Positions 29,575-53,486 of a stretch of DNA of 64,000 nt are shown in pieces. The stretch comes from Hansschlegelia quercus (GTDB taxonomy: Bacteria > Pseudomonadota > Alphaproteobacteria > Rhizobiales > Methylopilaceae): assembly GCF_004310425.1 (NCBI RefSeq), contig NZ_SIUB01000004.1, forward strand, positions 248,001 to 312,000. Reading direction: 5' to 3'. Within the stretch, counting starts at the first letter, position 1; each line of letters begins with the position of its first letter. A model generated the notes under the pieces. The model made no database searches, was not told where the DNA came from, and worked only from the letters and a program-made list of their open reading frames with translations. A program made the position numbers and the translations under genes.

Positions 29575-30690
29575 ATGCGTCACGCAGAAATCTCGGGAGC
29601 TGGATTGGCTGGCTTGTCAGCCGCAGCCGCTCTCGCGCGATCGGGGTGGAGTGTTCGAGTTCACGAGCGAAGCGATGAACTACGGGAGATCGGCGCAGGC
29701 ATCTTCATGTGGGAAAACGGCCTCCGTGTTCTTGAGGCGCTCGGGGCTTACGACGAGGCGATTCTTGGAGGAGAGCGCAACGAATATTGGGAAATCCGCG
29801 ACGAGCGCGCCCGCATCCTGCATTCTGGCTGGATGATGCAGGGCGCCCGCCTGATCACCATACTGCGCCAGCGCCTGCACCAGTCTCTCGCCAACGCCGC
29901 GATCCGGGCTGGCGCCGAGATCGTCACGAAATCCGAAATCGTCGGCGCAGACGCCTCGGGAGCCTTGATCCGCAAAGATGGGGCTCGTTTTCCAGCGGAC
30001 CTTGCGATCGGCGCTGATGGCTACAATTCCGCGGTCCGCCGCTCGCTCAACCTGACGCGCCGACAGACTGATCTGCAGGACGGATGCGGTCGGTTTCTGA
30101 TCGCCCGCAAAGAGGGCGATCCGGTGGGGCGCTGCCTCGAATACTGGCAGGGAGGTCGTCGCGTCGGAATTGTGCCGGTCAACGCTGAGCAGATCTATAT
30201 CTATCTCTGCTGCCCCGCCTCGGATGTGAAAGGCCGCGCCGGCGCGGCCGACAGGGATGAGTGGTCGCGCTCGTTCCCTCAGCTCAAGTCGTTCTTCGAC
30301 CGTTTGGAGGACAATGGGCGCTGGGCGCCGTTCTTCGACGTAACCTGCAGCCAATGGTCCAGCGGGCGTGTGGCGCTGGTAGGCGACGCCGCGCATTCCA
30401 TGTCGCCAAACCTCGGCCAGGGAGCGTGCGTGGCGATGCAGTCGGCGTTCGCGCTGAGCAAACAAGTCGCGAAGGCGGACGACGTCGAGACGGCGCTCAG
30501 AAGCTGGGAAGCAGCGCAGCGCCCGACGGTGGACGCGACGCAGCGCTTCTCGAGGCTTTATGGCAGGATCGGGACCCGCTGGCCGAAACCGCTTCTCGAC
30601 CTTCGCTCTGCTCTCGTCTGGAGCGTCGGGCGGTCGCCCTCGCTCCAGCGGCGGATCAATGTCGCGGCTCATAGCGACGCGACCGCCTGA
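29575..30690 (+). CDS. FAD-dependent aromatic monooxygenase
   Basis: 371 aa. A class A flavoprotein hydroxylase: GAGLAGLSAAAALARSGW (7-24) is the FAD GxGxxG fold, LAIGADGYNSAVR is the DG motif, and VALVGDAAHSMSPNLGQGA is the GD motif. It resembles salicylate, 6-hydroxynicotinate and 2-polyprenyl-6-methoxyphenol hydroxylases. It is followed 22 bp later by an Lrp-type gene in the same direction. Its position in this cluster makes an (N-)heteroaromatic substrate attractive, but this is inference. Confidence 0.82.
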   Translation: MRHAEISGAGLAGLSAAAALARSGWSVRVHERSDELREIGAGIFMWENGLRVLEALGAYDEAILGGERNEYWEIRDERARILHSGWMMQGARLITILRQRLHQSLANAAIRAGAEIVTKSEIVGADASGALIRKDGARFPADLAIGADGYNSAVRRSLNLTRRQTDLQDGCGRFLIARKEGDPVGRCLEYWQGGRRVGIVPVNAEQIYIYLCCPASDVKGRAGAADRDEWSRSFPQLKSFFDRLEDNGRWAPFFDVTCSQWSSGRVALVGDAAHSMSPNLGQGACVAMQSAFALSKQVAKADDVETALRSWEAAQRPTVDATQRFSRLYGRIGTRWPKPLLDLRSALVWSVGRSPSLQRRINVAAHSDATA

Positions 30691-30712
30691 GAGCGAGCTC
30701 GGAGACGCCTCC

Positions 30713-31753
30713 ATGCTGATCTTCTTTCCGGCACGTCTGGACAGCGCCCGACAGTCGCTGCGCGCGGCGTCTGCGGGCGATCTGTCAGAGACAGATCTGA
30801 AGCTCATCAAGCTCCTGCAGGCCGACGGTCGCGCGCCCTTCGTCCAACTCGCACGCGAAGTAGGGGCCACCGAAAAGACGGTTCGGCGTCGCGTGCAGGA
30901 ACTGCGCGATCGCAAGATCATGGAGATCACCGCCGTCGCGGACCCTCTGCTGCTGGGCTACCGCTCCACCGCCTTCGTGGGGCTGAAGCTGGACAAGAGC
31001 GCCCAGGCGGCGGAGGTCGCCCGCGATATCTTTGCGATTCCCCAGGTCGACTACGCGGTCGTGACGACAGGCCGCTACGACCTGGTGGTCGAGGCTCTCT
31101 GCCGCGAGGAAAAAGAACTCCTCGAACTCATGGAGACTCAACTCAGGACTCGGGCGGCTGTGCGCCACATCGAAGTGTTTCCGATCCTGAAGCTGCACTA
31201 CCAGCTTCCGGACTGGAACGCGGCGCAGCGCAAAACCTCGCCGTCGCCCGCAAGGACGGCCGAGATCGACGAGGGCGACCTCGCCATCATCCGAGAGCTG
31301 AGTTTCGACGGGCGCGCCTCCTTCGCCCAGATCGCGGAGCGCACCGGCCTGTCGGAGCCGCAGGTCAGCCGCCGCCATGATCGGCTGGTCGCTGACGGCG
31401 TCATGCGAGTGGTCGGCATCACGAATCCGCGCAGCCTCGGCTTCAACACGCTCGCGTGGCTCGCCATCCGCGCCGCGCCTGGCGTCAGGATTTCGGATCT
31501 GGCGGATCGCCTGAACGCCATTCCGTCGATCGCTTATGTCGTGGTGGCGGCCGGCCGCTTCGATTTGTTCGCGGAAGTCGTTTGCGCCGACCAGACGGAT
31601 CTTCTGCGCCTGCTCGACAACGATGTCAGGCCGCAACCCGATATCCAGACGGCCGAGGCCCTGCTGTGCCTCGATCTCTATTACCGGCGCGTCATGCCTG
31701 CGGCCTCGCCTTCAGACGATCTCGAAGCGGCGCCGAATCCCGCCTTCATCTAG
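30713..31753 (+). CDS. Tandem-module Lrp/AsnC regulator 1
   Basis: 346 aa, about twice the length of a normal Lrp. Module 1: HTH at about residues 25-70 (LSETDLKLIKLLQADGRAPF, then GATEKTVRRRVQEL) and a RAM/ligand domain. Module 2: HTH at about 185-230 (IDEGDLAIIRELSFDGRASF, GLSEPQVSRRHDRL), with a second ligand domain. ATG at 30713 follows GGAGA and gives no overlap with the upstream gene. Likely a metabolite-responsive regulator of this catabolic cluster. Confidence 0.88.
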   Translation: MLIFFPARLDSARQSLRAASAGDLSETDLKLIKLLQADGRAPFVQLAREVGATEKTVRRRVQELRDRKIMEITAVADPLLLGYRSTAFVGLKLDKSAQAAEVARDIFAIPQVDYAVVTTGRYDLVVEALCREEKELLELMETQLRTRAAVRHIEVFPILKLHYQLPDWNAAQRKTSPSPARTAEIDEGDLAIIRELSFDGRASFAQIAERTGLSEPQVSRRHDRLVADGVMRVVGITNPRSLGFNTLAWLAIRAAPGVRISDLADRLNAIPSIAYVVVAAGRFDLFAEVVCADQTDLLRLLDNDVRPQPDIQTAEALLCLDLYYRRVMPAASPSDDLEAAPNPAFI

Positions 31754-31770
31754 ATCGAAGGCAAGGCGGC

Positions 31771-32979
31771 TCACTGAGAAACGAGCGGGCATCCGCCGTT
31801 TTCGAGCGGCCGGAACGCCTGATCGCCGGGGATGGTGGTCAAAAGCTTGTAGTAATCGTAGGGCGCCTTGGATTCTGATGGGCGTTTGACCTCGAACACG
31901 TAGAGATCATGAAGCGCACGCCCGTCGGCGCGGACCGAGCCTTCGCCGAAGAGCGGATCCTGTGTCGGCAAGGCCTTCATCTGCGCCACCACCACCGCGC
32001 CATCATGCGCTTTCGCGGGACCAATCGCGGCAATCGCCTTCATCCAGTGCAGCGTCGCCGAGTATACGCCGGCCTGGTTCATGGTCGGGATCCGTCCCTC
32101 ATTGGCCGCCCTGTACCTCTCGGTGAACGCGCGAGTGGCCGCATTCATGTCCCAGTAGAAGGCCTCGGTGAGCCGCAGGCCCTGCGCCGTCTCAAGCCCG
32201 ATTGCGTGTATGTCGGTGATGTAGCCGAGCAATGCGACGACCTTCTGACCCGAGCCCATCAGTCCGAACTCGGAGGCCTGTTTCACGGCGTTGATGGTGT
32301 CGCCGCCGGCTGTCGCCATGGCCACGACGTCCGCGCCGCTGCCCTGAGCCTGAAGCACGAAGGATGAGAAATCGGTGGTCTGGAACGGCGCGAGGGCGTG
32401 GCCAGCGACATCTCCCCCAGCATTCGTGATCGCCTGTGTCGCGTCACGCTCGAGGGCGTGGCCGAAGGCGTAGTCGGCGGTGATGAAGTACCAGGACTTT
32501 CCGCCTTCCGCCGTCACGGCCTTTGCTGCGCTGTTGGCGAGCGCCCAGGTATCGTAGGTCCAGTGGATGGTGTTTGGCGTGCAGTTCTTGCCCGTCAGGT
32601 CCGACGATCCCGCGCTAGAGACCATCAGCACCTTGTTCTTGTCTCGGACGATGTTGGAGACCGCGAGCGCGACCGACGATGTCGGCGCGTCCGCGACGGC
32701 GTCCACCGCCTCGACGTCGAACCAGCGCCGGACAATCGCGGAGCCGATGTCGGCCTTGTTTTGGTGATCGCCTACGACGACCTCCACCCGAAATCCCTTG
32801 GTCTCGGGACGAAAGTCCTCCACGGCCATCTTCGCGGCCGCGACCGACCCCGGACCTCCGGTGTCTGCGTAGACGCCGGTCATGTCGGTCAGCACGCCGA
32901 GCTTAAAGGTCGGAAGCTCACCGCTCCGCGCGATGCCGGCGCTGCCTAAGAGCGCGACGAGCGCGATCACCTTCCGCAT
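31771..32979 (-). CDS. Branched-chain amino-acid-type ABC substrate-binding protein
   Basis: 402 aa. A signal peptide (residues 1-19, ending IARSG) precedes a type I periplasmic-binding fold: FKLGVLTDMTGVYADTGGPG, VVVGDHQNKAD, and SWYFITADYAFGHALERD, as in LivK/urea/amide-type receptors. No binding-protein gene lies with the livGFHM-like genes at 44-48 kb, so this probably serves them. It lies 53 bp after the betaine-type permease in the same direction and could be co-transcribed with it. Confidence 0.85.
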   Translation of the reverse strand: MRKVIALVALLGSAGIARSGELPTFKLGVLTDMTGVYADTGGPGSVAAAKMAVEDFRPETKGFRVEVVVGDHQNKADIGSAIVRRWFDVEAVDAVADAPTSSVALAVSNIVRDKNKVLMVSSAGSSDLTGKNCTPNTIHWTYDTWALANSAAKAVTAEGGKSWYFITADYAFGHALERDATQAITNAGGDVAGHALAPFQTTDFSSFVLQAQGSGADVVAMATAGGDTINAVKQASEFGLMGSGQKVVALLGYITDIHAIGLETAQGLRLTEAFYWDMNAATRAFTERYRAANEGRIPTMNQAGVYSATLHWMKAIAAIGPAKAHDGAVVVAQMKALPTQDPLFGEGSVRADGRALHDLYVFEVKRPSESKAPYDYYKLLTTIPGDQAFRPLENGGCPLVSQ

Positions 32980-33032
32980 TTCAGCACCCTCTAGCTGCTC
33001 CGCGTCACGACCGGCGGGTCAAGTGTCGGTCC

Positions 33033-35105
33033 TTAGGCTCTGCGGCTCACCGCCTTGAGCATCCGGTCGGAGAGCATCGCCACGCAGGCTATCGACAGTC
33101 CCGCCACGAGGCCTTTGCCGGCGTCTGCGCGTGAGAGGGCCACGTAAATCGCTTGGGCCAGCCCTTGGGTGCCGACGAGCGCCGCAATGGCGAGCATGCT
33201 TAGCGCCGACAGGATCGTCTGGTTGACCCCGAGCATGATCGACGGGCGCGCCATCGGCAGCTTCACATGCCGGAGGATCTGCAGGCGCGAGCACCCCATC
33301 TGGCGCGCCGCCTCGACGATCTCTGGCGAGGCCCCTCGCACGCCGTGCTCGACATAGCGGATCGGCGGCACGATCGCGTAGATCACGATTGCGATCAGCG
33401 CCGTGAACTCGCCCACCTGGAACAGCATGAGGGCAGGGATCAGCAACACGAATTGCGGCATCGTCTGGAGCGCATCGAGGATGGGCCGCAGAAAGGCCGA
33501 TACGCGATCATTCTCCGCCGCCCAGACGCCGAGCGCGCCTCCGCCCAGGATGCAGATCACCACCGCCAGCGCGCAGAGGTAGAGCGACTGCATCGTATCG
33601 GCCCACGAGCCGCTGAGCGCGATGAAAGCGATCGCCGCAGTCGCGAACGCGAGCAGACGCGCGCCGCCGAGCTGGTAGCTCAGCAGCAGGATGACAGCGG
33701 CGAAGCCGATCCAGGCCACGCCCGTGGTTCCGAAGAACAGCAGCCAGCCGGCGCACAGGATCGCGCATGAGAGCCGCCAGCGTCCGCCGATAAGAAGCGC
33801 CGCGCCCGCCATGATTCCGACAACCGCCCAGAAGCCGGCGATCATGACGGGCGTGAGCGCAAAGCCCCAGGTGAAGGGGCTTACGGCTTTGATCAAGCCG
33901 ATCCGCAGGGGAAGCATCAGAAAGAAGATCACTGCGTTCTTGAACGCCGTCATGGCGTCGCCGAAGCGAGCCACAAAGGCGAGCAGCCAGCCGTTCAGGG
34001 TTTCCGCCGGGCTGAAAGCCCACTCGCTCGGAAAGCGATCAAGCGCCGGCGCGACCTGCGCGGCGAGATAGAGCCCGAGCAAAGCGGCGGCTGCGAGCAT
34101 GAACCATGCGCGGCTCGCTCTGGCCCCCTTGCCGGCTTTGGCTGCGAAACCTGCCGTGATGCGATCGATCAGGATGGCGAGCAGCGCGATCACCAGGCCG
34201 CTCAGCAGGCCCTGCCCGAACTGTGCCTGGCGCATCGTTTGCAGCACCCTGAATCCGATGTCGTCGGACCCGCCGATCACCGCGGCGATGATCACCATGG
34301 CGAACACCGCCATGACCGTCTGGTTGACGCCAACCAGAAGCTGGCGGCGCGCTGACGGGAACTCCACGCGCCAAAACATCTGGCGGTCTGTGCACCCGCA
34401 CATCAATCCCGCCTCGCGGATGCTCGGCGGCACCTGCGCAAGGCCAAGCATCGTGTTCTGCGCCATCGGACCGAGCGCATAGATCGCGCTGGCCACGATA
34501 CCGACCACTGGTCCGAAGCCGAAGAGGACCAGGATCGGGATCAGATAAGCGAAGGTGGGTATCGTCTGCATCATCTCGAGCAGACCCAGGATGACGTCTC
34601 GCGCCCACCGCCGCCGATAGCCGAGCACGCCAAGGCCGAAGCCTGAGAGCACGGCGAGAGGCGTGGCGAGGGCGACAGCCGCCAGCGTGTTCATCGTCGG
34701 AGACCAGTAGCCGCCGACCAGCACATAGGCGCTGGCCGCCGCCGCGAACATCGCGAGACGCCAACCGCTGGCGCGGTAAGCCAGCAGGATCGCGCCGGTC
34801 GCCAGGACCGCCCAAGGCAGCGCGCCGAGCATTGCCTGCAGCGCCGACAGCGGCGCCTGGAGCGCGGCCGTGGCGCCGCGGAATAGCCACTGCGAAGGTC
34901 CGGTGAAAGCCGCAAAGGCCTCTCCGATCCATTGATGGATCGGCAGCGTCCACGCGGCGGGGAACAGGTGCATCTGGGGAACGCTGCGGCCGCCGGTCTC
35001 ACACCACAGGATGAAAAGCGCCACGGCTGCCCAAGCCATCGCGAACGGCTCCGCCCGGCGCCTGGCGCCCGCGGCCTTTTCCTCGAAGATCTCAAGCACG
35101 CTCAA
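33033..35105 (-). CDS. Glycine betaine/proline-type ABC permease, fused tandem
   Basis: 690 aa, with two permease units in one chain. Each half has about five or six membrane helices and its own EAA loop: IREAGLMCGCTDRQMFWRVEFP in the first, IVEAARQMGCSRLQILRHVKLP in the second. Both halves end in VNQT-type segments. This is the pattern of ProW-like permeases, duplicated and fused. The start is TTG at 35105 or GTG at 35099 inside the 3' end of the ATPase gene. It forms the channel of the importer together with the ATPase and binding protein upstream. Confidence 0.85.
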   Translation of the reverse strand: MSVLEIFEEKAAGARRRAEPFAMAWAAVALFILWCETGGRSVPQMHLFPAAWTLPIHQWIGEAFAAFTGPSQWLFRGATAALQAPLSALQAMLGALPWAVLATGAILLAYRASGWRLAMFAAAASAYVLVGGYWSPTMNTLAAVALATPLAVLSGFGLGVLGYRRRWARDVILGLLEMMQTIPTFAYLIPILVLFGFGPVVGIVASAIYALGPMAQNTMLGLAQVPPSIREAGLMCGCTDRQMFWRVEFPSARRQLLVGVNQTVMAVFAMVIIAAVIGGSDDIGFRVLQTMRQAQFGQGLLSGLVIALLAILIDRITAGFAAKAGKGARASRAWFMLAAAALLGLYLAAQVAPALDRFPSEWAFSPAETLNGWLLAFVARFGDAMTAFKNAVIFFLMLPLRIGLIKAVSPFTWGFALTPVMIAGFWAVVGIMAGAALLIGGRWRLSCAILCAGWLLFFGTTGVAWIGFAAVILLLSYQLGGARLLAFATAAIAFIALSGSWADTMQSLYLCALAVVICILGGGALGVWAAENDRVSAFLRPILDALQTMPQFVLLIPALMLFQVGEFTALIAIVIYAIVPPIRYVEHGVRGASPEIVEAARQMGCSRLQILRHVKLPMARPSIMLGVNQTILSALSMLAIAALVGTQGLAQAIYVALSRADAGKGLVAGLSIACVAMLSDRMLKAVSRRA

Positions 35106-36159
35106 GCGACCAGCCCCGATCGGCGCGCGCGCTTGCTGCAGCGACCGCCTTCATCAAACCATGCGTCGTGACCTGGCCAACGACCTTGCCGCTCTCGACG
35201 ATCGGCAGGGCGTCGACTTCGGCGAGCTTCGCAAGCAGCGACTCCAGAGGGGCGTCGCGCGAGACGCTCCCGTTCGTCGATAGCGAAACCGGGACAGGCT
35301 CCTCGATATCGCCCGCGGTGATGACGCGCAGGAGAGGCACATCGGCCACGAAGCGCGCCACGTACTCGTCGGCGGGCGACAGCACCAGATCTGCGGGCCT
35401 GCCGATCTGCACGACCCGACCGTCGCGCATGATGACGACACGATCGGCGATCTTAAGGGCCTCGAGGAAGTCGTGGGTGATGAAGACGATGGTCTTCTTC
35501 AGCGTGTGCTGGAGCCGAAGAAACTCGTCCTGCATCTGCTTACGAATGAGCGGATCGAGCGCGGAGAACGGTTCGTCCAGGAACCAGAGGTCCGGGCCGA
35601 CCGCGAGCGACCGGGCGATCCCGACGCGCTGCTGCTGTCCTCCCGAGAGCTGATGGGGGAAGGCGTCCTCGCGACCCGAAAGGCCGACCAGGCCGATCAT
35701 CTCCGCGGCCCGCCGCCTCCTGTCGGCGTCGCCCTTGCCCTGTATGCGCAGCGGGAAAGCGACGTTCTCCAGGACGGTGAGATGAGGGAGCAGACCGAAG
35801 CTCTGAAACACCATGCCCATCTTGTGACGACGGACTTCGGTCAGCTCCGCGCCGGAGAGCTTCATCAGGTCGCGGCCTTCGAAGATGACCTCGCCTGCGG
35901 TCGGCTCGACAAGTCGAGACAGGCAGCGGACCAGCGTCGACTTGCCGGAACCGGAGAGCCCCATGATGACCAGGCATTCGCCCTCAGCCACATCGAAGCT
36001 GACGTCAGAGACAGCGGGAATGAGCCCGCCGCCTCGGAGCGTCGCGACCTTCTGTTCGGTCTCACCTCGGCTTCGGGAGAAGGCGCGATCGGCGCCGTCT
36101 CCGAAGACCTTCCAGAGGTTGCGACAGGCAAGCTTGGTTTCCACGGCAGGTCCGGTCAC
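35092..36159 (-). CDS. Quaternary-amine ABC transporter ATPase (ProV-like)
   Basis: 355 aa. N-terminal ATPase: Walker A MGLSGSGKSTLVRC, Q-loop MVFQSFGLLPH, signature LSGGQQQRVGIARSLA, Walker B LWFLDEPFSALDPL, and a His switch in VFITHDF. A C-terminal CBS-like regulatory region follows (about 265-345, SLLAKLAEVDALPIVESGKVVG), which in OpuA/ProV senses ionic strength. The N-terminal RNLWKVFG is typical for glycine betaine/proline betaine importers. Confidence 0.9.
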   Translation of the reverse strand: MTGPAVETKLACRNLWKVFGDGADRAFSRSRGETEQKVATLRGGGLIPAVSDVSFDVAEGECLVIMGLSGSGKSTLVRCLSRLVEPTAGEVIFEGRDLMKLSGAELTEVRRHKMGMVFQSFGLLPHLTVLENVAFPLRIQGKGDADRRRRAAEMIGLVGLSGREDAFPHQLSGGQQQRVGIARSLAVGPDLWFLDEPFSALDPLIRKQMQDEFLRLQHTLKKTIVFITHDFLEALKIADRVVIMRDGRVVQIGRPADLVLSPADEYVARFVADVPLLRVITAGDIEEPVPVSLSTNGSVSRDAPLESLLAKLAEVDALPIVESGKVVGQVTTHGLMKAVAAASARADRGWSLERA

Positions 36160-36208
36160 GACGTCCTCCGAGATGAATGCTGCGTCCGGACCATGCGGTC
36201 AGGCGAGA

Positions 36209-37162
36209 TCAGTTCGCCGCCTGCTTCCAGCTCGCCATCTCCTGGGGGTGCGCATCCAGCCAGGCGTTCACAGCCTTTTCGACCGGCACCTGGTCCTGAT
36301 CGACCTTGAGCGCGATCTCGTTCTGCGCATCGGTCGTGATGCTGAAGCTCTTCAGAAACTTGTAGGCCGCGGGCCACTTGTCCTTCATGCCGACCCAGCC
36401 GAGCTTCTTCACCCAGCCGGTCGGCCATCCGCAGTCATGTGTCGCTTCGGGGTTCGGACCGACCTTCGGGTCGGTGTAACATTCGGGCGTGCTTTCCGGC
36501 AGCTTGACCCACTTCGGGTGCTCCGCCGCGAAGATCCAGTGCGGGCTGTAGAACATCATCAGGATGGGCTTCTTCGCCGCAACCGCAGCCTTGTATTCTG
36601 CGACTTCGGCGCCGTCGGAGCCAGGCGAAACCAGCTTGTAGTTCAGCCCGAGCGCGGCGACCCGCTTGTCGTTGTCGGGCCCCCAGTCCGCGGGATAGTC
36701 GAGCATACGGCCCTGGGGATAGGTCTCGGCTGAGGCGAACTTGTCGGCGCAGTCATTCAGCGCCTTGTAATCCGGCAGCCCCGGGCACTCTTTCTCCATG
36801 TAGTCTGGATAGATCCAGCCCTCGATCGTCTTGATGCCGAGGTCGCCGAGATCTTCGCCCTTGCCGCTGTTGATGGCCTTGGCGAAGTTGTCCTGGATTG
36901 TGTGCTCCCAGATCTCGAGCGTCGCGGTGATGTCGCCGTCCATCACGCCCTGGATCTGCGGGAGGTAGCCGGCGGTGACGTACTCCACCTTGTAGCCGAG
37001 GCGCTTCAGCGCCTCGCCCGCGAGATAGGTGGTGACATGCTGGCCGGTCCACTCGTTGACCGCGAGCTTGATCGGATCGGCCGATTCAACGGCGCTTGCA
37101 GGCGTCGGGGCTGCGAGCGCGAGGGGCAGCAAAAGGACGGCGCTCTTCCACGGCAAGGTCAT
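36209..37162 (-). CDS. Glycine betaine/quaternary-amine binding protein (ProX-like)
   Basis: 317 aa. Signal peptide (MTLPWKSAVLLLPLALAAPTP..ASA), then an OpuAC-type domain: IKLAVNEWTGQHVTTYLAGEAL, VEYVTAGYLPQIQGVMDGDI, LEIWEHTIQDN, and VLMMFY-like PILMMFYSPHWIF. Many Trp/Tyr/Phe residues could form the aromatic cage typical for trimethylammonium ligands. The start at 37162 is chosen because it begins the signal peptide. First gene of the proX-proV-proW order on this strand; divergent from regulator 2, which is likely to control it. Confidence 0.87.
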   Translation of the reverse strand: MTLPWKSAVLLLPLALAAPTPASAVESADPIKLAVNEWTGQHVTTYLAGEALKRLGYKVEYVTAGYLPQIQGVMDGDITATLEIWEHTIQDNFAKAINSGKGEDLGDLGIKTIEGWIYPDYMEKECPGLPDYKALNDCADKFASAETYPQGRMLDYPADWGPDNDKRVAALGLNYKLVSPGSDGAEVAEYKAAVAAKKPILMMFYSPHWIFAAEHPKWVKLPESTPECYTDPKVGPNPEATHDCGWPTGWVKKLGWVGMKDKWPAAYKFLKSFSITTDAQNEIALKVDQDQVPVEKAVNAWLDAHPQEMASWKQAAN

Positions 37163-37261
37163 CGTCACATTCCCTATAAGAGCCAACGTTTTGGAAGCCG
37201 TCCGAACCGGTCTCATCGGTTAAAGACGGTCTCGCTTCCCTTTTCGGTTGAAAAGCGGACT

Positions 37262-37310
37262 TTGATTACCGTATTTTTTCGTGAGTAGGCGTGTCAATGC
37301 GTTTTTCGCG
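37262..37310. promoter_or_regulatory. Shared sequence blocks in proX-like / Lrp-2 control region
   Basis: TGATTACCGTAT (37263-37274) and GTCAATGCGTTTTTCGCG (37293-37310) lie between the divergent binding-protein and regulator genes. Close copies recur at 42015-42063 and 48371-48416, both next to LLM monooxygenase genes. This suggests a common operator or promoter, possibly for a tandem Lrp. Confidence 0.45.
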
Positions 37311-37409
37311 CGGAAGCCGCTTCAGAATGACCGTTTTACGTGCTTCCTTGCCACTTCTCGCGGCGCCTGCGTATTGTCGCTCCGGCCACAGCCTTATTCC
37401 GTGATCTTG

Positions 37410-39212: not shown

Positions 39213-39222
39213 CTGTTCAGGC

Positions 39223-42063: not shown

Positions 42064-42080
42064 AGATTGGGAGCGCCGCT

Positions 42081-44023: not shown

Positions 44024-44057
44024 CCAACCTGCAACAACACGAAACGGGAGAAGACGC

Positions 44058-45220: not shown

Positions 45221-45935
45221 CGCTCCCGCGGCCTCTCCGCAACCGCTGCTCTCTGTGCAGGCTCTGGAGGGCTGGTATGGCGAGAGCCACGTGCTGCACG
45301 GCATGACATTCGACGTCGCAAGCGGCGAGGTCGTTTCACTTCTCGGGCGCAACGGCGCCGGCAAGACCACCACCTTAAGGGCCATCATTGGCGTGCTCGG
45401 CAAGCGCCGCGGCTCCGTCACCTGCGCCGGGGTCGAGACCATCGGCATGCCTGCGCGTTCGATCGCGCGCCTCGGCGTGGGCTATGTTCCGGAAGAGCGT
45501 GGGATCTTCGCCGGTCTGTCGGTCCAGGAGAATCTAACCTTGCCTCCCAAGCTCCGTCCCGGCGGAATGGATCTGGAGCAGATCTACCGCCTCTTTCCAA
45601 ACCTCAAGGAGCGGGCGCGCAGCCCAGGCACAAAGCTTTCCGGAGGTGAGCAGCAGATGCTGGCCATCGCCCGCATCCTTCGGACCGGCTCCAAGCTCAT
45701 CCTGCTCGACGAGCCGACGGAGGGTCTTGCGCCGGTCATCGTCGAACGCATTGCCGAGGTCATTCAACGCCTGAAGGCGGACGGCTACACCATCATTCTG
45801 GTGGAGCAGAACCTGCGTTTCGCCCAGTCGATCGCCGGGCGCTTTGTCGTCGTCGAACAGGGCCGCGTGGTCGATGCAATTTCGAACGAAAGCGGCTGTC
45901 GGCTCCACCAGCTCCACGCCTATCTGGGCGTCTGA
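45213..45935 (+). CDS. livF: Liv-type ABC ATPase LivF
   Basis: 240 aa. Walker A GRNGAGKTTTLRAI, VPEERGIFAGLSVQENL, signature LSGGEQQMLAIARIL, Walker B LILLDEPTEGLAP, and VEQN as the switch. The ATG at 45213 overlaps livG by 8 bp; an upstream frame was rejected because it gives no homologous extension. Second ATPase of a heterodimeric importer. Confidence 0.9.
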   Translation: MTDAPAASPQPLLSVQALEGWYGESHVLHGMTFDVASGEVVSLLGRNGAGKTTTLRAIIGVLGKRRGSVTCAGVETIGMPARSIARLGVGYVPEERGIFAGLSVQENLTLPPKLRPGGMDLEQIYRLFPNLKERARSPGTKLSGGEQQMLAIARILRTGSKLILLDEPTEGLAPVIVERIAEVIQRLKADGYTIILVEQNLRFAQSIAGRFVVVEQGRVVDAISNESGCRLHQLHAYLGV

Positions 45936-45954
45936 CAATGGCCACGATCCAACG

Positions 45955-46842
45955 ATGAGCACGATCTTCGGCATTCCTTCGAATGCGCTTTTCAGCCAGC
46001 TGCTGGTCGGACTGATCAACGGCTCTTTTTACGCGATGTTGTCGCTCGGACTTTCGATCATCTTCGGCCTGCTGAACGTGATCAACTTCGCCCATGGCGC
46101 GATGTACATGGCGGGCGCGTTCGTCGCATGGATCCTGCTGAACGAGGCCGGCATCGGCTATTGGTGGTCGCTGTTGCTCGCGCCGCTTGTCGTGGGCCTG
46201 TTCGGGGCAGCCTTCGAGCGCCTGCTGCTGGCGCGCCTCTACAAGATCGATCACCTTTACAGCTTGTTGCTGACCTTCGGGCTCGCGCTGATCATCCAGG
46301 GATCCTTTCGCCAGGTCTATGGCTCCTCAGGCCTGCCTTACGCGATCCCGGCGGCGCTTTCCGGCGGGCAGAAGCTACCCTTTATGTTCCTGCCGAACTA
46401 TCGAGCATGGGTCGTCGTCGCGTCTCTTTCAGTCTGTGTCGCGACATGGCTGCTGATCGAGAAGACCAAACTTGGGGCCTATCTTCGCGCTGCGACTGAA
46501 AACCCGGCCTTGGTCGAGGCCTTCGGCGTCAACGTGTCTCTTCTGCGAACGATGACGTATGCCTTCGGGGTCGGGCTGGCCGGGCTGGCAGGCGTTCTTG
46601 CGGCGCCGATCTATTCAGTCAGTCCGAGCATGGGCGCGGACACAGTCATTGTCGTGTTCGCCATCGTGGTCATCGGCGGTATGGGATCGATCCTGGGCTC
46701 GATCGTCACCGGCTTCGGGCTCGGGCTGATCGAGGGCATGACCAAGGTCTTCTATCCGCAAGCTGCCTCTACCGCGGTCTTCGTCATCATGGCGCTGGTG
46801 CTGATCATGAAGCCCGCGGGCCTTTTCGGGCGCGCATCGTGA
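45955..46842 (+). CDS. livH: Liv-type ABC permease LivH
   Basis: 295 aa, about eight membrane spans. Typical LivH traits: FSQLLVGLINGSFYAMLSLGLSIIFGLLNVINFAHGA and VIGGMGSILGSIVTG near the C-terminus. ATG at 45955, 19 bp after livF. The frame upstream is open but carries no family sequence. Confidence 0.9.
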   Translation: MSTIFGIPSNALFSQLLVGLINGSFYAMLSLGLSIIFGLLNVINFAHGAMYMAGAFVAWILLNEAGIGYWWSLLLAPLVVGLFGAAFERLLLARLYKIDHLYSLLLTFGLALIIQGSFRQVYGSSGLPYAIPAALSGGQKLPFMFLPNYRAWVVVASLSVCVATWLLIEKTKLGAYLRAATENPALVEAFGVNVSLLRTMTYAFGVGLAGLAGVLAAPIYSVSPSMGADTVIVVFAIVVIGGMGSILGSIVTGFGLGLIEGMTKVFYPQAASTAVFVIMALVLIMKPAGLFGRAS

Positions 46843-47825
46843 GCGACGTCGTTCAATCGCCTGCGTCTCCTTCGAGCCTGCCCGACAGCAGGGCCAAAAC
46901 GCCAAAGGCGATACGGCTTTATCTGGGCGTTCTGCTCGGCATAGCGGCGGCTCTCGTCGCCCTCCCGTTCGCGGTCTACCCGATCTTTCTCATGAAGGTG
47001 CTGTGCTTCGCGCTGTTCGCTCTCGCCTTCAACCTGCTTCTTGGCTTCGGCGGGCTGCTGTCATTTGGCCATGCCGCTTTCTTCGGCGGCGCGGCTTACG
47101 TCTCGGCGCACGCAGCCAAGGTGTGGGGTCTGAACCCGGAGGCAGCTATCGCCTGTGGGGCGCTGGCTTCCATGGGCCTGGGCGTCATCATCGGCTGGCT
47201 TGCGATACGTCGACAAGGCATCTACTTCGCGATGATCACCCTGGCGCTCGCGCAGCTGGTCTATTTCGCCTGCCTGCAGGCGAAATTTACAGGCGGTGAG
47301 GACGGCGTCCAAGGCGTCCCCCGGGGCCATTTGTTCGGCTTGTTCAACCTTGCCGACGACCGCGTTCTCTACGCGATGGTGGCCGCCATCTTCATGGCTG
47401 GCCTTCTGGCGATCCTGCGGGTGATCCACTCGCCCTTCGGACAGGCTCTCAAAGCGATCCGCGAGAACGAGGCGCGCGCCACGTCGCTCGGCTTCCGGGT
47501 CGAGCGCTACAAGCTCGCTGTTTTCATCTTGTCCGCCACTCTGGCCGGGACCGCAGGCGCCACCAAGGCCGTTGTGTTCCAGCTCGCATCGCTGACCGAC
47601 GTTCACTGGGCAACATCGGGAGCTGTGATCTTGATGACCCTCGTTGGGGGCATGGGAACATTGTTCGGACCCATCGTCGGGGCCTTCGTTGTCGTCGGCA
47701 TGGAAAGCTATCTGGCGCCCTTTGGCGCATGGCTCACGATTGTTGAAGGTTTGATTTTCGTAACCTGCGTAATCCTGTTTCCGAACGGATTTGTCGGAGC
47801 TCTCGCCAAGAAGACGGCGCGATAG
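46839..47825 (+). CDS. livM: Liv-type ABC permease LivM
   Basis: 328 aa with about nine membrane spans. LivM traits: ALFALAFNLLLGFGGLLSFGHAAFFG, IRRQGIYFAMITLALAQLVYF, and ALKAIRENEARATSLGF with the ATPase contact. GTG start at 46839 overlaps the livH stop (GTGA). Last gene of the CobW-EamA-CMD-Liv operon; it has no binding protein nearby. Confidence 0.9.
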   Translation: MSDVVQSPASPSSLPDSRAKTPKAIRLYLGVLLGIAAALVALPFAVYPIFLMKVLCFALFALAFNLLLGFGGLLSFGHAAFFGGAAYVSAHAAKVWGLNPEAAIACGALASMGLGVIIGWLAIRRQGIYFAMITLALAQLVYFACLQAKFTGGEDGVQGVPRGHLFGLFNLADDRVLYAMVAAIFMAGLLAILRVIHSPFGQALKAIRENEARATSLGFRVERYKLAVFILSATLAGTAGATKAVVFQLASLTDVHWATSGAVILMTLVGGMGTLFGPIVGAFVVVGMESYLAPFGAWLTIVEGLIFVTCVILFPNGFVGALAKKTAR

Positions 47826-48329: not shown

Positions 48330-48370
48330 TCCTAAATCCACAATTTTCGACCTAATGCGGGCTGTAAAAA

Positions 48371-48416: not shown

Positions 48417-48643
48417 TAATGCGATGAAGCAGCGGAAACACGCAAATGAAAACGCCATGACCGCGGAATACGGCGTCTGCCGGCCTGATTCAGCGCCGCG
48501 ATCGTCTACATCCTCGGGAAGCTGCCGGTAGTGAAGCGGCTCGGCGAAGGCGGCTACGCGGCCTGCCCGACCGCGCTTGGCGGACGGAACAGCCCGTCCA
48601 CCCGTCCATTCAACCACATCCGCATGCACAGGGAGGTAACCCG

Positions 48644-49723
48644 ATGAGGATCGGTCTTCTTCAAGAAGGCGAGATCATGCCGGGCGTCAGCGTCGCACAG
48701 CGCTACAACGAGATGATCGCTGAGGTCGGTCGCGCCGATGAACTCGGCTTCTACAGCTGGGGCACGTCCGAGCAGCACTTCTCGCCGCCGCGCTTCACCG
48801 TCTCCGCTCCTGAAGTGCTCTACGCCGCGATCGCGCGCGAGACGAAGAACATCAAGCTGCGGATCATGTGCTCTGTTCTGCTCAAGTGGAACCACCCGAT
48901 CCTGGTGGCCGAGCGGCTGGCGACACTCGATATCGTGTCGAACGGCCGCGCCGAGATCGCGACCGCGCGATCCAACAACTTGACCACGCTTGGAGCCTTT
49001 GGGGTCGATCCCTCGGAAACGCGCGCGCAGTGGGAAGACGGCCTCGCTGTTCTCATCAAGGCGATGTCGGACGAGACGCTCGAGCACGACGGCCCGGTCT
49101 GGAAAATTCCTGCACGTCAAATCGTGCCGCAGCCGCTGCAGCGACCCCATCCGCCCATCTGGGTCTCCGCGTCGAGCGTGGATACACACCGCATGGCCGG
49201 CGAGAAGGGCATCGGCGTCCTGACGTTCGAGAACTACTTCGGCTTCGACTATCTGCAGACCTGCATCGACGCTTACCGGGAAGGCCGACAAGCCGGAACC
49301 TCGGTCGCGCGCGCCCGCAACGACCAGATGGGGCTCTACGTCGCGACGGCCTTTTGCGCCGAGACACGGGAGGAGGCCCGGCGCGTCGCCCGTGACGTCG
49401 CGCTCGGCTACTTCAAGTTCATCCTCGATCTCTACGTGCCCCTCGGAAAGCGCAGCTCCTACGAGTATCTCGACGAGAAGATGACCCGGCTGCTCGACAA
49501 CGAGGGCAACCTGGATTTCCTCGTCAACGAGACACCGTCGGTGATGATCGGCACGCCGGACGACTTCATCCGTCGGCTGGACGATCTGAAGAACCGCGGC
49601 GTCGACGAGGTGCTGCTTCGCGTCGACGGCGTGCCGCACGCCGACATCATGCGATCCTACGACCTGATCGGCCGGGAGGTGATCCCGCACTTCCGCGACG
49701 TCCGGCTGCAGGCGGCGCAGTGA
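48644..49723 (+). CDS. LLM-class flavin-dependent monooxygenase 2
   Basis: 359 aa. Paralogous to the protein at 40872-41945 over its whole length (for example MRIGLLQEGEIMPGVS, TSEQHFSPPRFTVSAPEVLY, NHPILVAERLATLD, WKIPARQIVPQPLQRPHPP), so the two probably act on related substrates. ATG at 48644 is preceded by GGGAGG. It needs reduced flavin from the reductase encoded just after it. Confidence 0.88.
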   Translation: MRIGLLQEGEIMPGVSVAQRYNEMIAEVGRADELGFYSWGTSEQHFSPPRFTVSAPEVLYAAIARETKNIKLRIMCSVLLKWNHPILVAERLATLDIVSNGRAEIATARSNNLTTLGAFGVDPSETRAQWEDGLAVLIKAMSDETLEHDGPVWKIPARQIVPQPLQRPHPPIWVSASSVDTHRMAGEKGIGVLTFENYFGFDYLQTCIDAYREGRQAGTSVARARNDQMGLYVATAFCAETREEARRVARDVALGYFKFILDLYVPLGKRSSYEYLDEKMTRLLDNEGNLDFLVNETPSVMIGTPDDFIRRLDDLKNRGVDEVLLRVDGVPHADIMRSYDLIGREVIPHFRDVRLQAAQ

Positions 49724-50247
49724 TGGCGAACGTGTCCATCGCGGATTCCAACGCGCTAGACGTAGCGGTCTTCAAGCGGCTGATGGCCGACATGCCCCAA
49801 GCCGTAACCATCATCACGGCCATGACCGAGGACGGAACGCCCGTTGGCGCGACGCTGTCGGCCGTGATGTCGCTATCGATGAACCCGCCCATGATGGTGG
49901 CGGCCTTCGATCGAGGCTCCGAGACTTTGGCCTGCCTGAGCCAAGGTCGACCGTTCCTGATTCACATCCTCGGCGAAGGACAGGAAAAGCTCGCCTACCG
50001 CTTCGCGGGAAAAGGCGGGGCGGCCAAGTTCTACGAAATCGAATGGTCGGCCGCGCCCTGCGGCAGTCCGAAGCTTCCCTCGGCCGCGGGCGTCATCGCC
50101 TGCCGGGTCGTACATCTGCACGAGGGCGGCGACCACGTTCTCGTCACCGGCTCGATCAGCGACATCGAGCATCCCGCAGAGGCTGAGCCGCTCGTCTACC
50201 ACCGTCGCGAGCTGCGCCCCGCCCGCAATCTTCGCGCCGCCGCCTGA
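49723..50247 (+). CDS. Flavin reductase, partner of LLM monooxygenase 2
   Basis: 174 aa. Split-barrel flavin reductase: MADMPQAVTIITAMTEDGTPVGATLSAVMSLS, MVAAFDRGSETL, RPFLIHIL and GGDHVLVTGS. Resembles the paralogue at 38676 but has a distinct N-terminus. ATG at 49723 overlaps the LLM stop (TGATG); GTG at 49720 would add one residue. Confidence 0.83.
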   Translation: MANVSIADSNALDVAVFKRLMADMPQAVTIITAMTEDGTPVGATLSAVMSLSMNPPMMVAAFDRGSETLACLSQGRPFLIHILGEGQEKLAYRFAGKGGAAKFYEIEWSAAPCGSPKLPSAAGVIACRVVHLHEGGDHVLVTGSISDIEHPAEAEPLVYHRRELRPARNLRAAA

Positions 50248-50266
50248 TCCTCGAGAGGACAAGACC

Positions 50267-51769
50267 ATGACGATCGCGTTCGATCCCTCTTCTTTCATCA
50301 CCGCGGATGTGAAGACGTTCCTTGACGATCCCAAGAAGCTGTTCATCGGCGGTCATTTTGTTGAGGCGCTATCTGGAGAGACCTTCGACACGATCGATCC
50401 CGCGACTGGTCGGATCATCAGCGCGATTCCTGCAGCCGGCGTCGCTGACGTCGACGCCGCCGTCAAGGCAGCCGAGAAAGCGTTCCAGACGTGGAGCGCG
50501 ACCTCTCCCGCCGAGCGCGAGCGTGTCATCCACCGCTTCGCCGACCTGATCGAAGCGCGCGCCGAGGAGTTCTCGCAGATCGAGAGCTTCGACACCGGCA
50601 AGCCCGCCGGTCACATCAAGTTCGTGGACGTGCCGCTCTCGGTCGGCGCGCTACGCTACAACGCGGGGTGGTGCACCAAGATAGAAGGCTCCGTGCCCGC
50701 CGTCTCGGCGGCCGGCATGCTCTGCTACACCCGCCGCGAAGCGCTCGGCGTCGTGGCGGCGATCGTGCCTTGGAACTTCAACCTCTGCCAGGCCGCCTTC
50801 AAGATCGCTCCGGCGCTTGCGGCCGGCTGCACCGTGGTGCTGAAACCTGCCGAGCAGTCGCCGCTTGCGGCGCTCTACTTAGCAAAGGTCGCGGCCGAGG
50901 CCGGGGTCCCCGAGGGCGTGCTCAACGTCGTAACCGGCGATGGCGAGACAACGGGTGCTGCGCTCTGCGCCCATCCCGGCGTCGACAAGATCGCGTTCAC
51001 GGGATCCGAAGAGGTCGGCAAGCTGATCGCACGCAACGCCGCGTCGAGCCTCAAGCACGTGTCGCTCGAGCTCGGCGGCAAGAGCCCGAACATCATTTTC
51101 GCGGACGCCGACATCGAGACTGCGGCGCGCACAGCCGCCATGGCGATCTTCTTCTACACCGGCCAGGTCTGCACTGCGGGCTCACGCCTGCTGGTTGAGC
51201 GCCCGATCCTCGAGCGGGTGGTGTCGCTGATCGTTGAGGAGGCCGGCAAGCTGAAGCTCGGCCATGGGCTCGCTCCCGACACCACTCTTGGCGCGCTCGT
51301 TTCGCAGGAGCAGCGCGCTCGGGTGATGAACTTCGTCGACGTCTCGCGCGAGGCGGGCATCGAGATCGCGACCGGCGGCAGGATTCCCTCGCAGTTCGAT
51401 GATGCGAGCGCGTTCTACGAGCCGACCGTGCTGGTCGACCCGTCCGACGACTCAAGGGTGGTCGCGGAAGAGGTGTTCGGCCCGGTCCTGGCGATCCAGA
51501 GCTTCGACACGATCGAGGAGGTTGCGGCGCGCGCCAACCGCACGACCTACGGCCTCGCGTCGGGCGTGTGGACCCGTGATCTCGCAAAGGCCCACACCAT
51601 GGCTTCCGCACTCAAGGCCGGCTCGGTGTGGGTCAACACCTACAACCAGTTCGACGCGGCTGCTCCCTTCGGAGGCTACAAGCAGTCCGGCTACGGCCGT
51701 GACAATGGCCGGGAAGGCGTCGAAAAATTCCTTCAGACCAAGGCGGTTTGGATCAACCACGGGGCCTGA
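50267..51769 (+). CDS. NAD(P)-dependent aldehyde dehydrogenase 1
   Basis: 500 aa. All core motifs are present: PWNFNLCQAAFKIAPALAAGC, FTGSEEVGK, the base Glu in LELGGKSPNI and the nucleophile Cys302 in YTGQVCTAGSR, then FGPVLAIQSF. It is closest in style to betaine/phenylacetaldehyde-type ALDHs. Follows the reductase gene by 19 bp with a GAGAGGAC ribosome site, so it is part of the LLM-2 operon. Probably oxidises the aldehyde formed from ring opening; substrate unknown. Confidence 0.88.
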   Translation: MTIAFDPSSFITADVKTFLDDPKKLFIGGHFVEALSGETFDTIDPATGRIISAIPAAGVADVDAAVKAAEKAFQTWSATSPAERERVIHRFADLIEARAEEFSQIESFDTGKPAGHIKFVDVPLSVGALRYNAGWCTKIEGSVPAVSAAGMLCYTRREALGVVAAIVPWNFNLCQAAFKIAPALAAGCTVVLKPAEQSPLAALYLAKVAAEAGVPEGVLNVVTGDGETTGAALCAHPGVDKIAFTGSEEVGKLIARNAASSLKHVSLELGGKSPNIIFADADIETAARTAAMAIFFYTGQVCTAGSRLLVERPILERVVSLIVEEAGKLKLGHGLAPDTTLGALVSQEQRARVMNFVDVSREAGIEIATGGRIPSQFDDASAFYEPTVLVDPSDDSRVVAEEVFGPVLAIQSFDTIEEVAARANRTTYGLASGVWTRDLAKAHTMASALKAGSVWVNTYNQFDAAAPFGGYKQSGYGRDNGREGVEKFLQTKAVWINHGA

Positions 51770-52061
51770 CGGTCAACGGTGAAGGTCCTCCTGGTCATCG
51801 TCGACGTTCCCTTGATTTCGCATGAAGGTCATCGCGACGGCGCGAGTGGAGCGTCGTCGGAGACCGCGGGATCAGCGACGACGAGATCATGAAGGTGGGG
51901 ACCTGCGGTCACGCGGGATGCAGGCGCGGCGTAGGTCTACCCCGTGCGAGTAATGGCGGCGGCAGCGTCCGCCTCTTCGATCGGAACGATCCCCGGCGGC
52001 GGCTCGCCCTGTCGGCCGGGCGTGAGCTGCCGTTCATTATTTCAGGCTAGGGCTCATTGAC

Positions 52062-53486
52062 ATGACCGCATCGCTCTACATCGACGGCGCTTGGACAGAG
52101 GGGTCTGGAAAGCGCCGCGGCAAGGTTCTGAACCCGGCGACGGGGCAGCAAGTTGGCGAAGTTCCGTTCGCCGAAGACGCCGATCTCGACCGTGCGCTCC
52201 TAGCCGCCGGAAAGGGGTTCCGGGTCTGGAAGGCCATGAGCGCGATTGAGCGTTCGAAGATCATGCGCAAGGCGGCCGAAATCATGCGCGAGCGCCACGA
52301 GACGATGGCGCGCGCCATCACGGCAGAACAGGGCAAGCCGATTGCGGAGGCCCGCATCGAAGCCTCGCTTGCGCCCGAGCATACTGAGTGGAACGCCGAG
52401 GAGGGTCGCCGCGCTTACGGCCGCCTGATCCCGGCTCGTGCGAGCGACGTCACGCAGCTCGTGGTCAAGGAGCCGATCGGGCCAGTGGCCGCCTTCAGCC
52501 CTTGGAACTTTCCCGTCAATCAGGTGGTGCGCAAGATCGCCTCAGCGCTTGCCGCCGGCTGCTCGATCATCGTCAAGGCGCCCGAAGAGGCCCCGACCTG
52601 CGCCGTCGAGCTAGTGAGGTGTTTCGAGGAGGCAGGAGCTCCCGCGGGCGTGCTCAACCTCGTGTTCGGCGTGCCGGCGGAAATCTCCGAGCGGTTGATC
52701 TCCTCGTCCGTCATCCAGAAGGTGTCGTTCACGGGCTCGGTGCCGGTCGGCCGCCACCTCGGCGCACTGGCGGCGAAACACCTGAAGCCGACCACTATGG
52801 AGCTCGGCGGCCACGCGCCCTTCATCGTGACCGAAGACGTCGATCCAATCGCAGTGGCGGCCGCGGCGACAGCGTCGAAATTCCGCAACGCGGGACAGGT
52901 CTGCATCTCGCCGACACGCTTCCTCGTGCACGACAAGGTGTTCGACCGCTTCCTCGAAGCCTTCGTGGAGAAGGCAGAGGCCATCAAGGTTGGAGACGGC
53001 ATGGCGGAGGGGACGCAGATGGGCCCGCTCGCGCAGGCTCGCCGTGTGGATAGCGTCGACGAACTGGTGCAGGACGCCGCAGCCAAAGGCGCGACGGTGC
53101 ACGTGGGCGGCCGTCGTATTGGCAATCACGGCTTCTTCTACGCGCCCACGATCGTGGCCAATGCGCCGCTGCCGTCCCGCATCATGAATGAGGAGCCGTT
53201 TGGACCAGTCGCGATCGTCAACCGCGTGACCTCGCTTGACGAGGCGCTGACCGAAGCAAACCGTCTGCCGTTTGCGCTAGCGTCCTACGCGTTCACGAAC
53301 TCGCTGAGCCATGCCGACCGTATAACGGACGATATCGAGGCCGGCATGCTGACGATCAATCACTTCGGTCTGGGGGTCCCCGAGACGCCGTTTGGCGGGT
53401 TCAGGGACAGCGGCCACGGATCGGAAGGAGGCGTCGAGGGGCTTTCGGCCTACCTGCGGAACAAGTTCGTTTCGCGTAAGCGATGA
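52062..53486 (+). CDS. Aldehyde dehydrogenase 2 (succinate-semialdehyde type)
   Basis: 474 aa. ALDH motifs: PWNFPVNQVVRKIASALAAGC, FTGSVPVGRHLG, Glu in MELGGHAPFI, Cys281 in NAGQVCISPTRF, and FGPVAIVN. The MNEEPFGPVAIV and GLGVPETPFGGFRDSG tail is SSADH-like. A terminal oxidation of a C4 semialdehyde would fit the Pyr and Tgn pathways, but substrate class is inference. The 292-bp gap before it has no gene that I can support. Confidence 0.86.
   Translation: MTASLYIDGAWTEGSGKRRGKVLNPATGQQVGEVPFAEDADLDRALLAAGKGFRVWKAMSAIERSKIMRKAAEIMRERHETMARAITAEQGKPIAEARIEASLAPEHTEWNAEEGRRAYGRLIPARASDVTQLVVKEPIGPVAAFSPWNFPVNQVVRKIASALAAGCSIIVKAPEEAPTCAVELVRCFEEAGAPAGVLNLVFGVPAEISERLISSSVIQKVSFTGSVPVGRHLGALAAKHLKPTTMELGGHAPFIVTEDVDPIAVAAAATASKFRNAGQVCISPTRFLVHDKVFDRFLEAFVEKAEAIKVGDGMAEGTQMGPLAQARRVDSVDELVQDAAAKGATVHVGGRRIGNHGFFYAPTIVANAPLPSRIMNEEPFGPVAIVNRVTSLDEALTEANRLPFALASYAFTNSLSHADRITDDIEAGMLTINHFGLGVPETPFGGFRDSGHGSEGGVEGLSAYLRNKFVSRKR

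Follow-up and report, generated by a model that had tools for sequence, protein, structure and literature searches.

The window analysed here is a 64,000-nucleotide stretch of Hansschlegelia quercus DNA (positions 248001-312000 of contig 11 in a 3.58-Mb genome), and between its positions 29575 and 53486 lies an island of catabolic, transport, and regulatory genes. These include two luciferase-like monooxygenases (LLM1 and LLM2), each with a flavin reductase, a single amidohydrolase, a CobW-like protein, a flavin adenine dinucleotide (FAD) oxygenase, two aldehyde dehydrogenases, and two ATP-binding cassette (ABC) importers. A preliminary description of the same DNA had named this set as a candidate system for the catabolism of an N-heterocycle or quaternary amine, and every gene it named is present, open, and located inside these limits. 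Beyond its list, the island carries two double Lrp/AsnC regulators, an EamA transporter, and a carboxymuconolactone-decarboxylase-family (CMD) protein.

The island begins with a FAD_binding_3 oxygenase of the MHPCO type (29575-30690, + strand), the proposed second ring opener, followed by a tandem-fused double Lrp/AsnC regulator (regulator 1; about 30674-31753, +, start approximate) that is 44% identical to the Lrp protein beside the FAD oxygenase of S. fredii NGR234. On the opposite strand, a betaine-type importer (33033-37216, -) comprises a fused double permease of the choline/betaine/trimethylamine N-oxide (TMAO) type (33033-35105, -; TIGR03416, 371.5 bits, cut-off 363), a ProV-type ATPase (35092-36159, -; TIGR01186, 345.2 bits, cut-off 326.6), and an OpuAC solute-binding protein (36209-37216, -) whose nearest solved relative is 4xz6 (TmoX, R. 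pomeroyi). Encoded after its permease is a Peripla_BP_6 solute-binding protein (31771-32979, -) that presumably serves the second importer, LivGFHM. Divergent from these transporter genes is a second tandem-fused double Lrp/AsnC regulator (regulator 2; within 37281-38483, +, true start probably inside), 41% identical to regulator 1.

The first LLM cluster consists of flavin reductase 1 (38676-39269, -), an Amidohydro_3 amidohydrolase (39223-40872, -), and LLM1 (40872-41945, -), the ends of which overlap as listed. The amidohydrolase, proposed as the N-acyl-enamine hydrolase for both ring openers, keeps the HAH/H/H/D residues that we take to be its metal ligands. Divergent from LLM1 is a CobW/COG0523-type GTPase (42081-43094, +), a proposed metal inserter with a P-loop (GFLGAGKTT) and a GCLCC motif in its translation and 47% identity to the 'GTP-binding protein' of plasmid pYKAM101. 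It heads a plus-strand series in which adjacent genes mostly overlap or abut, continuing with the EamA (DMT) transporter (43094-44023, +; start approximate), the CMD protein (44010-44393, +), and LivGFHM (44390-47825, +), that is, a LivG-type ATPase (44390-45220, +), a LivF-type ATPase (45132-45935, +; its listed start overlaps LivG and the true start is probably further in), a LivH-type permease (45844-46842, +; true start probably near 45955), and a LivM-type permease (46839-47825, +). The second cluster contains LLM2 (48644-49723, +), flavin reductase 2 (49720-50247, +), which it overlaps, and, 19 bases further on, the aldehyde dehydrogenase ALDH1 (50267-51769, +). The last gene of the island encodes a succinate-semialdehyde-dehydrogenase (SSADH)-like enzyme (52062-53486, +) that is 39% identical to E. 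coli GabD and scores 438 bits against TIGR01780, the cut-off of which (646) it does not reach.

LLM1 and LLM2 are 74% identical to each other, and the two flavin reductases 44%. To gather relatives, genome contigs were searched with an alignment of four LLM rows, each species being represented by one genome; this gave 43 named loci. In a 77-row tree both proteins fall within a 43-row clade (support 100/99), itself nested in a 59-row group (100/99) that also holds the LLM of plasmid p2MP and leaves out SsuD, RutA, and the other LLM genes of the same genome (10 of 12 entered in the tree). Plasmid p2MP belongs to the pyridine degrader Arthrobacter sp. 68b, and we take its LLM, the record of which is without gene names, to be PyrA; the plasmid has two copies of this LLM, which share a protein accession and lie around the cluster in opposite orientations (L084 21503-22654 and L003 8001-9152). 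When approximately unbiased (AU) tests were run on 73 rows, four long-branch rows having been removed beforehand, as they were for a second LLM tree, a grouping of the clade with the presumed PyrA was not rejected (p-AU 0.38), whereas groupings with the SsuD pair (p 0.0004) and with the RutA pair (p 9e-9) were, and membership of the LLM pair in either of those lineages is rejected. The clade itself keeps its support (100/99) in the second tree, to which a very divergent LLM was added. The preliminary description had envisaged that LLM enzymes open the ring, that an amidohydrolase then cleaves the amide, and that an aldehyde is oxidised last, and had pointed to a grouping with alkanesulfonate or other non-heterocycle enzymes as an outcome that would speak against it; the rejected SsuD and RutA groupings and the shared 59-row group with the presumed PyrA lend its scheme support.

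The closest relatives of the two LLM proteins differ: the sisters of LLM1 are found in Hansschlegelia plantiphila and a Hyphomicrobium metagenome-assembled genome, and those of LLM2 in Ancylobacter moscoviensis and Pseudochrobactrum. Since the partner genes differ as well, a local duplication is rejected, and the island merges two paralogous LLM clusters of different descent. In the family, only two of 18 genomes have strong matches (the present one and one of the same genus group, G010); in the class, a close relative (E <= 1e-80) occurs in 7 genomes out of 289, the present one counted. No characterised member was found, the best PDB match scoring 87 bits and no NCBIfam model reaching its cut-off, and none was named in the literature among the matches listed. 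Elsewhere in the same genome (contig 13, 147251-149487), another LLM paralogue adjoins an NCS1 permease gene, and on plasmid pAM01 of Aminobacter sp. MSH1 (L059) a distant LLM occurs with a peptide-deformylase-like protein, an N-formylglutamate deformylase, and an aldehyde dehydrogenase.

Gene neighbourhoods were compared by tblastn within 9 kb of the LLM gene at 42 clade loci (41 in the tree plus L038), 33 of which have 4 kb or more of sequence to each side. Lrp regulators (39/42), flavin reductases (36/42), EthD proteins (31/42), ALDH1-type dehydrogenases (29/42), amidohydrolases (27/42), and nucleobase-type NCS1 permeases (25/42) recur most often, followed by RibBA (8/42), a molybdenum hydroxylase (6/42), CobW (5/42), and a betaine-type ABC importer (3/42); LivH was found at none. 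Nine LLM loci of more distant relationship served as controls; there the amidohydrolase, Lrp, EthD, and NCS1 genes were each absent (0/9), and flavin reductase (5/9), ALDH1-type (2/9), and RibBA (2/9) genes were present at some. Much of the gene set is thus found again near relatives from Alpha- and Gammaproteobacteria and from Actinomycetota, which is more than chance would give, and the LLM proteins form a coherent family whose conserved neighbourhood also occurs as a cassette on a soil-captured plasmid of broad host range. Locus L039 has LivG- and LivH-type genes (62-63% identity) after its LLM cluster, LivH falling just past the 9-kb limit. All six molybdenum hydroxylases, which are of the xanthine-dehydrogenase type (Pfam check for L009 and L043), lie at marine loci (L009, L010, L017, L042, L043, and L048), and the one neighbour checked there, at L009, proved to be another kind of Amidohydro_3, of which the loci hold five homologues.

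The cassette on the IncP-1 lambda soil plasmid pYKAM101 (L001, 11118-28143) is flanked by two copies of the IS21 element ISPman1, and comprises LLM, flavin reductase, EthD, aldehyde dehydrogenase, Lrp, RibBA, CobW, amidohydrolase, and NCS1 genes; a close relative of it occurs in Pseudomonas sp. MN1F (L008). The table entry in the plasmid's own paper reads only 'Two ISs'.

The FAD oxygenase, whose role the preliminary description had left open, can be placed more closely. By far its nearest PDB relatives are entries for MHPCO, which match residues 2-329 of its 371 at 210 bits; the best score for any other enzyme is 96 bits, and 6-hydroxynicotinate 3-monooxygenase reaches 93 bits. MHPCO is a ring-opening pyridine oxygenase, and an otherwise generic FAD hydroxylase thereby gains a likely role as an MHPCO-type ring opener. 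Relatives at 52-67% identity share a module with an amidohydrolase and an ABC importer of the sugar type in six records (S. fredii NGR234, R. pyridinivorans P23, Rhodococcus PD04, Leucobacter soli, Nocardioides IC4_145, and A. crystallopoietes pLDW-10), the oxygenases of P23 and PD04 being one protein accession. In NGR234 the oxygenase gene is followed by a double Lrp regulator of the same kind as in the window. In M. palustre (54%), the only amidohydrolase is that of the nearby LLM cluster. Among the 289 genomes of the class, 11 have a match at E <= 1e-60, and only the present genome has one above 351 bits.

Several genomes hold both kinds of oxygenase. Of 17 genomes with LLM clusters, five have a FAD-oxygenase match at E <= 1e-60, in three of them above 540 bits; the two genes are separated by about 5 kb in M. 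palustre and by about 19 kb on a Nocardioides contig, A. crystallopoietes pLDW-10 carries both modules on one plasmid, and Leucobacter has them on separate contigs of one genome. On the NGR234 plasmid record, the only replicon of that strain searched, no LLM of the clade was found (best match 93 bits), and in Rhodococcus PD04 the LLM that lies close to the FAD module failed as a family member (29% identity over part of its length). A 44% relative of the FAD oxygenase on plasmid 4 of Variovorax sp. SRS16 (L111) is accompanied by a branched-chain-amino-acid-type ABC importer, a type also present in the window.

The amidohydrolase connects these two sets of genes. In the 25 genomes searched, all 11 amidohydrolase matches above 780 bits sit at LLM clusters. 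In a 40-row tree, the FAD-linked amidohydrolase of NGR234 and the LLM-linked protein of Pseudochrobactrum are sisters (100/99), the FAD-linked protein of Nocardioides lies at the base of an actinobacterial LLM-linked group (93/89), and those of R. pyridinivorans and Leucobacter (32-35% identical to the protein in the window) fall outside. On 37 rows (five removed, two as duplicates and three for long branches), AU tests reject a single clade of the six FAD-linked rows (p-AU 1.9e-39) and of the 28 LLM-linked rows, that of the window included (p-AU 1e-80), values that are optimistic because the groups were named after the earlier tree had been seen. As these trees indicate, the family has switched between LLM and FAD-oxygenase partners, and the simplest reading is that both kinds of oxygenase would yield products cleavable by the same hydrolase.

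The aldehyde dehydrogenases divide along similar lines. ALDH1 belongs to a 27-row clade (100/100), which among the rows examined comes only from LLM loci (the M. palustre gene was entered twice), and its sister is the Ancylobacter enzyme, in parallel with LLM2. None of four FAD-module loci (L004, L005, L080, and L081) has an ALDH1-type row; those of R. pyridinivorans and Nocardioides have a GabD-type SSADH and no ALDH1, and the aldehyde dehydrogenase of the Leucobacter module is of unclear type. This distribution would fit an ALDH1 that oxidises the aldehyde released when an LLM cleaves the ring; cleavage of the MHPCO type would call for no such step. The second aldehyde dehydrogenases of LLM clusters L022 and L040 group (100/100) with one from p2MP.

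Among the characterised systems compared, the pyr system has a gene complement that the island shares: an LLM, a flavin reductase, an aldehyde dehydrogenase, an amidohydrolase, and an SSADH (in the window only SSADH-like) are all present, matching the five pyr steps. The p2MP cluster likewise has an LLM oxygenase, a flavin reductase, and an Amidohydro_3-like amidohydrolase, together with two aldehyde dehydrogenases annotated as SSADH. Unlike it, the window has two LLM systems and an MHPCO-type oxygenase; its LLM proteins are only 37-39% identical to that of p2MP, and no Lrp, EthD, NCS1, or betaine importer is listed in the p2MP stretches read, for which the gene table is incomplete. Because the island would work like pyr but its amidohydrolase is not orthologous to that of p2MP, we set it apart as a variant. 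The tgn cluster of Acinetobacter baylyi follows a comparable logic of LLM plus reductase, aldehyde dehydrogenase, hydrolase, and SSADH. The preliminary description had set the LLM pair beside TgnA; a figure legend in PMC11354265 gives the name of trigonelline monooxygenase to TgnB instead. In the Pseudomonas order, 7 genomes out of 194 have an LLM match at E <= 1e-40, one being the Pseudomonas MN1F already mentioned; around the other six, whose LLM proteins are 29-33% identical and in two cases have an aldehyde dehydrogenase close by, nothing recognisable as tgn appeared when the contexts were read with the query set of the window analysis. Vitamin B6 degradation in M. loti includes MHPCO, and its last hydrolase converts E-2-(acetamidomethylene)succinate to succinic semialdehyde, ammonia, acetate, and CO2 (PMC3538738). 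The island shares with that pathway the FAD oxygenase family and, prospectively, the hydrolytic step that there yields succinic semialdehyde from an N-acyl enamine acid; it differs in its hydrolase, which is an Amidohydro_3 protein and not the B6 enzyme, and in pathway partners and substrate.

Taken together, we consider it somewhat better than an even chance that the island degrades an N-heteroaromatic compound, most likely of the pyridine type, with LLM and MHPCO-type ring openers meeting at one N-acyl-enamine amidohydrolase, a reading drawn from homology and gene context. In the pathway we propose, the substrate would enter through the betaine-type importer and/or LivGFHM, and each flavin reductase would feed reduced flavin mononucleotide (FMN) to an LLM oxygenase. 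The LLM, to which we ascribe ring cleavage because of its relationship to the presumed pyridine oxygenase and its gene company, would oxygenate and cleave the ring next to the nitrogen, giving an N-formyl or N-acyl enamine aldehyde. ALDH1, tied as it is to LLM loci, could oxidise this to an N-acyl enamine acid, from which the metal-dependent amidohydrolase, probably metallated with the help of CobW, would strip the acyl group to leave a semialdehyde and a small amide or amine; the SSADH-like enzyme may then convert the semialdehyde to succinate or a relative. By the second entry, the MHPCO-type FAD oxygenase would open a hydroxylated pyridine. MHPCO chemistry makes the N-acyl enamine acid directly, and because of this the FAD route would need no ALDH1 and would join at the amidohydrolase step. 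Two paralogous LLM clusters of different descent and a FAD oxygenase would thus have been assembled around one amidohydrolase, and the idea that this enzyme is a hub where different ring-opening chemistries meet can be tested. The N-heterocycle reading of the preliminary description is strengthened by the pyr-like gene complement and the 59-row group that the LLM proteins share with the presumed PyrA; its quaternary-ring part stays a guess.

Several observations weigh against this proposal. The p2MP LLM is a weak sister of the clade (94/73 in the 77-row tree) and in the second tree takes no resolved position, with the split from the SsuD/RutA side dropping to 62/95; the identity of the LLM proteins to the presumed PyrA is low (39% for LLM1, 37% for LLM2). 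Relatives in the wider LLM group accompany CoA ligases and hydratases. The amidohydrolase is only 26-27% identical to that of p2MP and falls outside its clade, 15 of the 42 clade loci (several on short contigs) have none within 9 kb, and a marine alphaproteobacterial sub-clade has no close amidohydrolase and other genes instead. EthD, common at the clade loci, is absent from the window, and the SSADH-like enzyme sits on a long, weakly placed branch (82/46). The link between FAD oxygenase and amidohydrolase holds for close relatives only: near the 39-44% relatives of Pseudonocardia (L082), pAL1 (L110), and Variovorax (L111), no amidohydrolase was found, and in the ten class genomes whose FAD-oxygenase matches do not exceed 350 bits, amidohydrolase scores go no higher than 226 bits. 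At the NGR234 FAD-module locus, no aldehyde dehydrogenase was found, and only one of the 42 clade loci has a FAD oxygenase within 9 kb of the LLM.

The importers offer a clue to the substrate. The OpuAC protein scores 227 bits against 4xz6, which is the TMAO-binding TmoX of R. pomeroyi (PMC8918994). Of the seven TMAO-pocket residues listed in that paper, W55, W102, E131, and W177 are kept and F106I, F220M, and W222Y are changed; with only four of the seven kept, the label 'TMAO importer' was rejected. The protein thus resembles that of TmoXWV in family and in these four residues and departs from it in the three substitutions. F106I and F220M occur in all four copies (window, L007, L012, and L015), L012 alone differing also at positions 177 (Y) and 222 (C), and the cation box was likely reshaped for a ligand other than TMAO. 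Such a box, kept in part and with shared changes, favours an N-methylated or cationic ring as the ligand. The three loci with a betaine-type importer all lack NCS1 within 9 kb, a pattern that the window fits; the genome has two NCS1 genes elsewhere. The Peripla_BP_6 protein is the only candidate binding protein for LivGFHM in the region, and its position behind the betaine-type permease gene suggests that the two importers belong together. Four Hyphomicrobium-type loci carry, with an NCS1 gene and on one strand, a folate-linked N-demethylase-like gene (DAO-FAO_M-GCV_T; read at full length in L101, in part in a second, and assigned by position and homology in two) and an SBP_bac_8 ABC importer, which gives a weak hint of N-methyl groups. 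As a best single guess, and a tentative one, the substrate of the LLM1 half would be an N-methylated or cationic ring. The preliminary description had likewise paired the betaine-like importer with an N-methylated ring; the partly kept cation box agrees with it, and the scarcity of this importer among the relatives does not.

That scarcity, set against the NCS1 permeases found at more than half of the clade loci, is the first argument for a neutral heterocycle instead (pyridine, or an alkyl or hydroxy pyridine), with the betaine-type importer a bystander that takes up osmolytes or TMAO. The nearest known oxygenase acts on pyridine, and the importer's nearest solved relative binds TMAO. In our judgement this alternative is on the doubtful side of even. 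It does not readily account for the presence of the importer beside LLM clusters in three relatives (one of the same genus), each without NCS1 within 9 kb, for the two substitutions common to all four copies, which suggest one ligand other than TMAO, or for the LivGFHM candidate binding-protein gene that comes after the betaine-type permease gene.

It is less probable that the FAD oxygenase, LivGFHM, and the SSADH-like enzyme are passengers and that the pathway consists of the LLM and amidohydrolase operons only. The FAD oxygenase does lie 8.5 kb from the amidohydrolase and on the opposite strand, it is rarely near an LLM in relatives, and Liv genes stand beside an LLM cluster in L039 alone. 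Close relatives of the FAD oxygenase, however, have members of this amidohydrolase family beside them, and several genomes contain such oxygenases together with LLM clusters, and the double Lrp regulator that follows the NGR234 oxygenase is of the kind found here.

Rather unlikely, in our view, is a Rut-like pathway in which an oxygenase of a different clade opens a non-pyridine N-heterocycle, such as a pyrimidine, imidazole, hydantoin, or purine fragment. An NCS1 permease with LLM, flavin reductase, and amidohydrolase genes does resemble the rut operon of E. coli, and the island follows the same logic of LLM, flavin reductase, amide hydrolase, and permease as that uracil pathway. The hydrolase is a different one, though, and so is the LLM clade, as the AU test on RutA indicates; a RutA relative (own_C9a) is encoded elsewhere in the genome, and the amidohydrolase family pairs also with an MHPCO-type oxygenase. 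That the LLM enzymes are not ring openers and act on an amine, aldehyde, or sulfur compound is improbable: LLM enzymes are chemically diverse and some in the wider group keep company with CoA ligases and enoyl-CoA hydratases, but the grouping with SsuD is rejected, the amidohydrolase family is common to MHPCO-type oxygenases, and nucleobase-type permeases occur at the LLM loci.

Returning to the favoured reading of a pyridine-type pathway, a broader version of it can be put forward only as a speculation, and one that we would not back at even odds. The Hansschlegelia lineage is methylotrophic. The island might then be a modular system in which mechanistically unrelated openers of related N-heteroaromatic rings (two-component, FMN-dependent LLM enzymes and a single-component FAD oxygenase), an amidohydrolase traded between them, and a quaternary-amine importer reshaped for an N-methylated heteroaromatic allow a host of methylotroph lineage to use both ring nitrogen and one-carbon units. 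If the substrate is an N-methylated ring, this would suggest a fate for trigonelline or homarine in methylotroph-rich settings.

Other genes flank the island. Upstream, beside a tRNA-Ala gene, a defence island (16426-29076) of lower GC content (57-63% in 2-kb bins) holds a large serine recombinase, a TIR protein with a class I pAgo-like protein, GajA/GajB (Gabija), a C5 DNA methylase, and a GIY-YIG protein. Downstream, two neighbouring DUF1254/DUF1214 proteins (53955-56796) follow the SSADH-like gene.

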